Shown: piece after piece, positions 6,747 through 8,297 of the stretch | Position numbering within the stretch: the stretch's first letter is position 1 | Layout: the number at the start of each line of letters is the position of its first letter | Assembly: GCA_016781505.1 (NCBI GenBank) | Contig: JADDQF010000054.1 | Coordinates: 22,201-86,200 of the forward strand | DNA: 64,000 bases | Direction: 5' to 3' | Source: a bacterium | GTDB taxonomy: Bacteria > Chloroflexota > Chloroflexia > Chloroflexales > Kallotenuaceae | Program-made: the position numbers and the translations under genes | The notes under the pieces: generated by a model | Databases searched by the model: none | Told to the model about the DNA's origin: nothing | Seen by the model: the letters and a program-made list of their open reading frames with translations, nothing else

Positions 6747-6982
6747 AAGCTATATCCTGCTGTTCACCGCCAGAATAATCCTATCAAGGAGCGAGCCGCG
6801 GTGGAGCGATGGCTCGGAACAGAGAACAGCAGCATACCAGTGATCGACAAGGCGTGAAGATCGAAGACTTGCGGTGGCACACCGTCTGCTCACTACACAC
6901 AGCCAGCAAGCCGTGTTAAATTCCAATATTGCCACCAGACGGCAACGTGGCTCAGGCACAACTGAAGGGAAAGGAGCAATCG

Positions 6983-7321
6983 ATGAGCCAAAATCAATCT
7001 TCAGGAGATAGTGGACGGCAGGCGGACCCGAGTGGGCTCGACATCCGGATCGATCCGGGGACCACCGATTTGGGGGACGATGTGCATCGCGGCGTGACCA
7101 ACCCTGCCCCGACGCCCTCAACTCGGGATGTTGATCCGGCGAGCGGGCTGGCTATCGGAATCGATCCAGGCACCACAGACCTCGGCGATGACGTGTATCG
7201 GGACGGCAGTAACGCAGGGAGCGGGCTGGACCAGGTCAACAACCCGGGCTTAGAAGGCGGCCTAGATCCGGGCAACACCGACCTGGGCGATGATGTGTAC
7301 CGCGACGCGACCGAGAGCTAG
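6983..7321 (+). CDS. small acidic protein with three DPG(T/N)TDLGDDV(Y/H)R repeats
   Basis: ATG preceded by AAGGAG; IRIDPGTTDLGDDVHRG, IGIDPGTTDLGDDVYRD and GGLDPGNTDLGDDVYRD. Confidence 0.7.
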   Translation: MSQNQSSGDSGRQADPSGLDIRIDPGTTDLGDDVHRGVTNPAPTPSTRDVDPASGLAIGIDPGTTDLGDDVYRDGSNAGSGLDQVNNPGLEGGLDPGNTDLGDDVYRDATES

Positions 7322-7587
7322 GCCAAGCGGGATAGTCCGGATGAAACTGCGGAGCGGACAAGCTTTTCCGGAGCAGTGTCCGCTTCATAAAGCATCAGCT
7401 CTAATGCTTGAAAGGTGCTGCCAGCCTCGGGTAGTGCTAAGAGGTTTGCGAGTAGACTCCATCGGTGCTCAGGAGCTCTCAATTTGGACAGTCAATAAGA
7501 TTGTGCTCCGGCTAACGGTTTGTGTGGCCCCGGGAACTGTTCCAGCACCACGCCTACCGTTACAAATCGGCCGATTCTTCCGCGATA

Positions 7588-8130
7588 TTAGACCTCGGCC
7601 GGACTATTTGCAGGCAGCACGGCTACCACCCGCTTGCTATGCGGCACATAATAGATCGTGGCCTGTTGTCCTGCCTCGTGAGCGGCAAACAGCGTGCGAT
7701 CAACCGGCAGCACCATGATCGGCCCGTCCTCGGTTGCCAGTGCCCGCCGCTGTTGAAACTGAATTTTACGCAGTGGACCTGCAATCGCGGCGACTTTGCC
7801 ACTTGCCAGATCTTGCCACATCGGCCACGACAGGCTAAATCGCACCAGGGCCATCCCCGCCAAACCCCAGCGCAAAACAGCACCATTGAGCCCGGCAGGT
7901 TGCCATGCAATCGCGATAATGACTGCGCTGACACAAAAAAGCAGTTCCGGCACGCTATACAACAACAGTCCCCGACGCTGCGCCGGCGCCAAACGACCCA
8001 GCGCGTTTTCGGCCGCAACCTGGGGGGCGACCGCCGGAGATACCACACTCTGACGCTGCACAACAAGCATTGCCATCCAGGCCAGCAGATATGGAGTAGC
8101 AAAAGCGATCAAGATTTCAGCGGGACGCAT
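7588..8130 (-). CDS. hypothetical membrane protein
   Basis: Several hydrophobic segments; AAAGGAAC upstream of the chosen ATG. Confidence 0.6.
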   Translation of the reverse strand: MRPAEILIAFATPYLLAWMAMLVVQRQSVVSPAVAPQVAAENALGRLAPAQRRGLLLYSVPELLFCVSAVIIAIAWQPAGLNGAVLRWGLAGMALVRFSLSWPMWQDLASGKVAAIAGPLRKIQFQQRRALATEDGPIMVLPVDRTLFAAHEAGQQATIYYVPHSKRVVAVLPANSPAEV

Positions 8131-8297
8131 CAATGTTCCTTTGGCAGGCAACGGCATCACGAGCCGGTTCAATCGGTGCCAGTACCGGCATCATACTCGA
8201 ACTGCAGCTGCAGCACACGGCGGTTGGTCCTGACTAACGGTAGCCGATTTGGGCGGAGCATGAGCGGCAGCTTGAACCGCCTCCGCCAGGCTTCGCA

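Follow-up and report, generated by a model that had tools for sequence, protein, structure and literature searches.

EPYC1 of the pyrenoid and CsoS2 of the alpha-carboxysome are disordered repeat scaffolds. The small repeat protein described here, encoded in the window (the whole stretch of 64,000 nucleotides that was analysed), resembles them in carrying several copies of a short conserved motif, which in EPYC1 and CsoS2 are binding motifs, on a putatively disordered chain with variable linkers. It differs from both, however, in that only three copies are present in about 110 residues and their binding is putative; furthermore, no sequence relation to EPYC1 or CsoS2 was found, and the gene has no Rubisco or shell-gene context.

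Hydrophilins are characterised by high glycine and a hydrophilicity index above 1, and it is the composition that they require, not a letter-perfect core of 8 residues. With GsiB and other hydrophilins the repeat protein has in common the small size, the richness in glycine, the hydrophilic character and repeats of about 20 aa, whereas its motif is another one, its core is stricter, its hydrophilicity is lower in three of four homologues and no Pfam match links it to them. Graspetide precursors carrying several copies of the core peptide are also known (PMC8939145). The likeness to these multi-core precursors lies in a repeated peptide that contains Thr and Asp; unlike them, the present protein comes with neither a ligase nor a leader, and its Thr is variable.

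The repeat protein gene and its distribution

An acidic protein of 112 aa with three near-identical peptide units had been described in the first-pass annotation. The translation of the open frame proved identical to the sequence quoted there, and the unit positions and their DNA were likewise as quoted; the features of the locus are collected in Table 1. In the three homologous genes a Shine-Dalgarno sequence, AAAGGAG or GAGGGAGG, was read at the same place. Overlapping or antisense frames across the repeats were considered and excluded by the third-position pattern. No consensus terminator was found after the gene, and the hairpin downstream, folding of which was not significantly better than that of shuffles, is a possible, weak terminator candidate.

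Table 1. Coordinates of the repeat protein gene and associated features in the window
Feature	Position	Strand	Remarks
Shine-Dalgarno AAAGGAG, 6 nt before ATG	6970..6976	+	read directly
112-aa repeat protein gene, ATG to TAG	6983..7321	+	open frame, Shine-Dalgarno, orthologues in 4/4 genus genomes
Repeat unit 1, GLDIRIDPGTTDLGDDVHRG	7034..7093	+	core DLGDDVHR at 7067-7090
Repeat unit 2, GLAIGIDPGTTDLGDDVYRD	7145..7204	+	core DLGDDVYR at 7178-7201
Repeat unit 3, GLEGGLDPGNTDLGDDVYRD	7247..7306	+	core DLGDDVYR at 7280-7303
GC-rich hairpin, 10-bp, 30 nt past stop codon, without T-run	7351..7386	+	RNA fold z = -1.4

The protein of the window genome (G000) has a pI of 4.05, a GRAVY of -0.84 and 16% Gly, and is devoid of Cys, Trp and Phe; across the four homologues GRAVY ranged from -0.8 to -1.1 and Gly from 11.9 to 19%, Trp and Phe being absent and Cys nearly absent. 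Neither a hydrophobic signal nor an N-terminal hydrophobic stretch or a membrane stretch is visible in its sequence and, since no N-terminal hydrophobic stretch is visible, the protein was taken as cytoplasmic. AlphaFold2 returned a model with mean pLDDT of 45, pTM of 0.10 and no secondary structure, from a 4-sequence alignment with which disorder and missing information are indistinguishable; the absence of a predicted fold would thus agree with disorder only weakly.

Homologues were detected in all four genomes of the genus examined (G000-G003), one per genome. The first-pass annotation had allowed for the protein having no translated homologues anywhere; this objection falls, because three homologues exist. 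Beyond the genus, whole-genome searches of 56 other relatives and a profile search of the 154 remaining genomes of the class revealed no homologue of the repeat protein, and a scan of 84,980 species genomes by pattern and tblastn recovered only two loci, both within the genus, which were the contigs of G001 and G002. The 20-residue repeat profile picked up three units apiece in G000 to G003, with E below 1e-8. Applied to 400 genomes of the phylum, it gave nothing convincing, with weak matches only (E 0.0015 and up), and the best of the matches inspected were rejected as relatives, as they sit in antisense-like open frames or in large unrelated proteins. The repeat protein had no match among phages, plasmids or viral contigs. 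No paralogue is present in G000, where the full profile matches nowhere else in the genome; DFGDDV on contig C137, one extra match of the DNA pattern, was dismissed as a paralogue, the control yielding 1 as well.

That no family could be recognised, as annotated at first, agrees with the database searches. Pfam, NCBIfam and PHROGs returned no family match for the G000 protein, and the single homologues matched entries of family databases at chance level only (E 0.03 to 0.7). Searches of the PDB gave no relative, the best profile match being nitrophorin with E = 1.4, a chance value, and the string TDLGDDV had no match in a full-text search of papers. We conclude that the open frame is a real, selected gene without a previous name, and that its product founds a new orphan family, restricted to one genus, whose architecture is of a familiar type.

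The homologue of G003 (L064:11759-12283, minus strand) is longer, with 174 aa, and contains three added degenerate N-terminal units. Two of these are without the TDLGDDV core (GLRGGAAPHAPTSGESML, twice) and one retains only NDVQRT, its core being cut to NDVQR. The pI of this homologue is near-neutral (7.0) because its N-terminal half is rich in Arg.

Repeat units and selection on their core

A full unit comprises about 34 aa, of which 20 aa are conserved and 14-17 aa form a linker with semi-conserved N and L; alignment of the four proteins gave the consensus GLEGGIDPGTTDLGDDVxR(D/T)xxNxGSxLDxxxxS. The distance from unit to unit is kept at 33-37 aa despite the diverged sequence of the linkers, and intact units number exactly three per genome in all four. 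As to the motif proposed initially, the three repeats stand, but the invariant part is DLGDDVxR and not the entire 15-mer; in its extended form the motif reads (I/L)D(P/A)GxTDLGDDVxR(D/T). Across the 12 units of the four genomes no change was seen in D12, L13, G14, D15, D16, V17 and R19, position 18 was free (H/Y/N/E/Q) and position 11 was occupied by T in 10 units, by I in 1 and by A in 1. All core aspartates (36/36) were kept, with no exchange for Glu or Asn, while D7, the best-placed additional acid, is replaced by Gln in one of the units. When the window was scanned with a degenerate DNA pattern for DPG(T/N)TDLGDDV, up to 3 mismatches being allowed, 3 matches appeared, every one within the repeat protein gene, versus 0 expected from shuffles. 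The segment GIDPGTT of unit 2 is reminiscent of a phosphate loop of the Hsp70/RuvC type; this likeness was judged to be due to chance, because in the other units LEGGLDPG or LEGGIDAG stands at this place.

Synonymous divergence among the units had been taken in the first-pass annotation as a sign that the peptide is selected, and both the observation and its interpretation were borne out by the counts. The three units of G000 differ with pS = 0.72 and pN = 0.15, and their DLGDDVxR cores with pS = 0.85 and pN = 0.02. In all pairwise Nei-Gojobori counts among the 12 units, taken together, the core DLGDDVxR showed pN of 0.004 and pS of 0.63, i.e. pN/pS of ~0.006, compared with pN of 0.23 and pS of 0.60 for the whole 20 residues. 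Between G000 and G002, pN was 0.03 and pS 0.78 in the core (taken here as 13 columns per unit) against pN of 0.48 and pS of 0.68 in the rest, pS being saturated in both. The linkers between the units are free to diverge. Judged from these alignments, purifying selection on the DLGDDVxR core is extreme and sharply localised, the invariance being partly by construction because the units were gathered using the core motif itself, and the homologue of G003 also having the degenerate units mentioned above. In G002 a near-identical stretch of 42 nt common to two units points to recent duplication or conversion, while the units of G000 are old, with pS of 0.72.

Genomic neighbourhood and cyanophycin genes

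In the window genome the repeat gene is isolated on the plus strand and flanked by minus-strand genes, namely an M23 peptidase gene and hisD to one side and the gene of a 194-aa protein and hisG to the other. A Pfam scan of the window between 1.4 and 12.8 kb assigned the neighbours to M28, HisD, M23, an unnamed membrane-type protein, HisG, creatininase, a HisS-like protein and a hydrolase. The order hisD, x, repeat gene, homologue of the 194-aa protein and hisG in G002 puts the gene in the same place as in G000. The 194-aa protein itself (window 7588-8172, minus strand) is of membrane type and has no Pfam match; it adjoins hisG in G000, G002 and G003 and has a homologue in G005. In G003 the pair of hisG and this gene is found without the repeat gene there, and the homologue of G005, located near hisD, is likewise without it. 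Directly upstream of the repeat gene of G002 we observed a low-complexity acidic open frame of about 93-104 aa (L065:7429-7707), for which the five remaining family genomes contain no homologue and which is therefore not a conserved partner.

Cyanophycin is a storage polymer of Asp and Arg. The repeat gene of G001 and of G003 heads a group of genes on one strand: a small lipoprotein gene follows 108 bp and 71 bp downstream, respectively, and after it a cyanophycin synthetase gene. The latter encodes a bona fide synthetase (TIGR02068, 1111 bits vs the cut-off of 850), behind which G003 has a cyanophycinase (TIGR02069, 306 bits). The intervening lipoprotein (L003:2340-2549 and L064:11451-11687) is rich in Gly and Thr and consists of a signal with LTACG, then TGGTTGGDTG repeats; both copies end in GDTGASPSASP.

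In addition to a common copy (about 47% identical), each of the genomes G000-G003 possesses a cyanophycin synthetase of a second clade, 76-84% identical to that of G003, which is absent from G004 and G005, the other two members of the family. The second cluster of G000 and G002 is composed of cphA, an amidohydrolase resembling isoaspartyl dipeptidase and a cyanophycinase and lacks the repeat gene; the second clusters are located on L078, L079 and L107, and G000 and G002 also carry the common cphA, ~47% identical. Synthetases of the same clade (68% identical) occur in G083 and G084, which belong to another family, in a cyanophycin cluster that is equally without the repeat gene. The motif Cx19HxxEH of the N-domain is retained in all cyanophycin synthetases checked, and in characterised enzymes this site makes the synthetase's own primers (PMC9262961).

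Adjacency to cphA was thus seen in two of the four genomes, not in most, and represents one arrangement common to two genomes that are sisters in the tree (G001 and G003). Since the gene occupies the hisD/hisG site in G000 and G002 and the cyanophycin site in G001 and G003, it must have moved within the genus, and adjacency to hisG is equally good or bad as evidence as adjacency to cphA. With two genomes for each site, the link to cyanophycin is a lead and not a result.

A proposed trivalent docking scaffold and alternative readings

The reading we prefer, to which we would give a probability of roughly 0.45, is that the repeat protein is a cytoplasmic, intrinsically disordered, trivalent adaptor or scaffold with three linear docking motifs. 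Selection keeps a short string of Asp, Leu, Gly, Val and Arg while its surroundings drift, which is the signature of a linear motif that a protein surface recognises; its presentation in three copies on flexible linkers leads to the reading of a trivalent adaptor or scaffold. That Leu, Val and Arg are invariant amid Asp and Gly and that position 18 is free suggests that a protein recognises the side chains. The build of a scaffold of this type, with at least three conserved copies of a short motif and variable linkers, was found in all four genomes. Mechanistically, three copies of DLGDDVxR would be displayed ~34 aa apart on flexible linkers of the small disordered protein, each copy would bind the same site on one partner protein, and the trivalent molecule would cluster this partner, multivalency being presumably of importance.

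The partner may be sought within the cyanophycin machinery, which is a lead. Linked to it is an explanation that we consider unlikely, namely that the protein is a cyanophycin accessory, the repeats of which bind the second synthetase or the granule in a phasin-like manner, or act as a protein primer. The order of repeat gene, lipoprotein and synthetase in G001 and G003 speaks for it, being kept in G003 although the GNAT gene is separated from the repeat gene there by two other genes, and so does the presence of the second synthetase in precisely those family members that have the repeat protein; however, the two genes are not adjacent in G000 and G002, and G083 and G084 have the synthetase without the repeat protein. 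A role as primer has little likelihood, given that the C-termini vary, none ending in Asp or Asp-Arg, and that the synthetase keeps its own primer-making site (PMC9262961). We regard as quite unlikely that the protein is an unspecific disordered, Gly-rich stress protectant of the hydrophilin/LEA-like kind, acting against drying or cold as GsiB of Bacillus. Its small size, Gly content of 12-19%, hydrophilic character, ~20-residue repeats and lack of a predicted fold (from the 4-sequence alignment) would suit such a protein, but the hydrophilicity values (minus GRAVY) of 0.84, 0.81, 0.81 and 1.06 fall below 1 in three of four cases, no stress-repeat match was obtained in Pfam or NCBIfam, and the Leu, Val and Arg positions that are invariant while linkers drift, and with them the core, are left unexplained.

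Processing of a multi-core RiPP precursor into three peptides, e.g. graspetide-like ones with Thr/Asp cross-links, is very improbable. Three near-identical units rich in Thr and Asp would be in line with it; yet no RiPP ligase, radical SAM protein, YcaO, peptidase-transporter or leader adjoins the gene (Pfam scan, window 1.4-12.8 kb), the acceptor Thr at position 11 is not invariant, and the sole nearby ATP-grasp protein, seen in two of the genomes, matches the cyanophycin synthetase model at equivalog level. The proposal of the first-pass annotation that Asp-rich, loop-like repeats could bind a metal fared no better and appears highly doubtful. It would account for the three invariant aspartates per core and for the acidity of the G000 protein, but not for Leu, Gly, Val and Arg, which are as invariant as Asp, and the G003 homologue is near-neutral; it is unsupported because L, V and R fall under the constraint as well, no change of D to E or N is accepted, and D7 is not strictly kept. 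No calcium or metal motif (EF-hand, dockerin, RTX) was matched in Pfam at E up to 1, and we know of no Ca loop that the repeat pattern fits.

The trivalent scaffold might, in a more specific form, organise the cyanophycin synthetase or the granule by means of an 8-residue docking code private to one genus, which we hold to be improbable. To our knowledge, no dedicated scaffold of such kind has been described for cyanophycin granules; if true, it would be new, and a storage polymer would gain a scaffold protein comparable with the phasins of PHA. The interest of the repeat protein lies chiefly in the sharpness of the constraint: it is a clean case of an orphan gene that, despite being restricted to one genus, experiences very strong purifying selection within sharp limits, and it yields a testable minimal motif, DLGDDVxR, along with a short list of possible partners.
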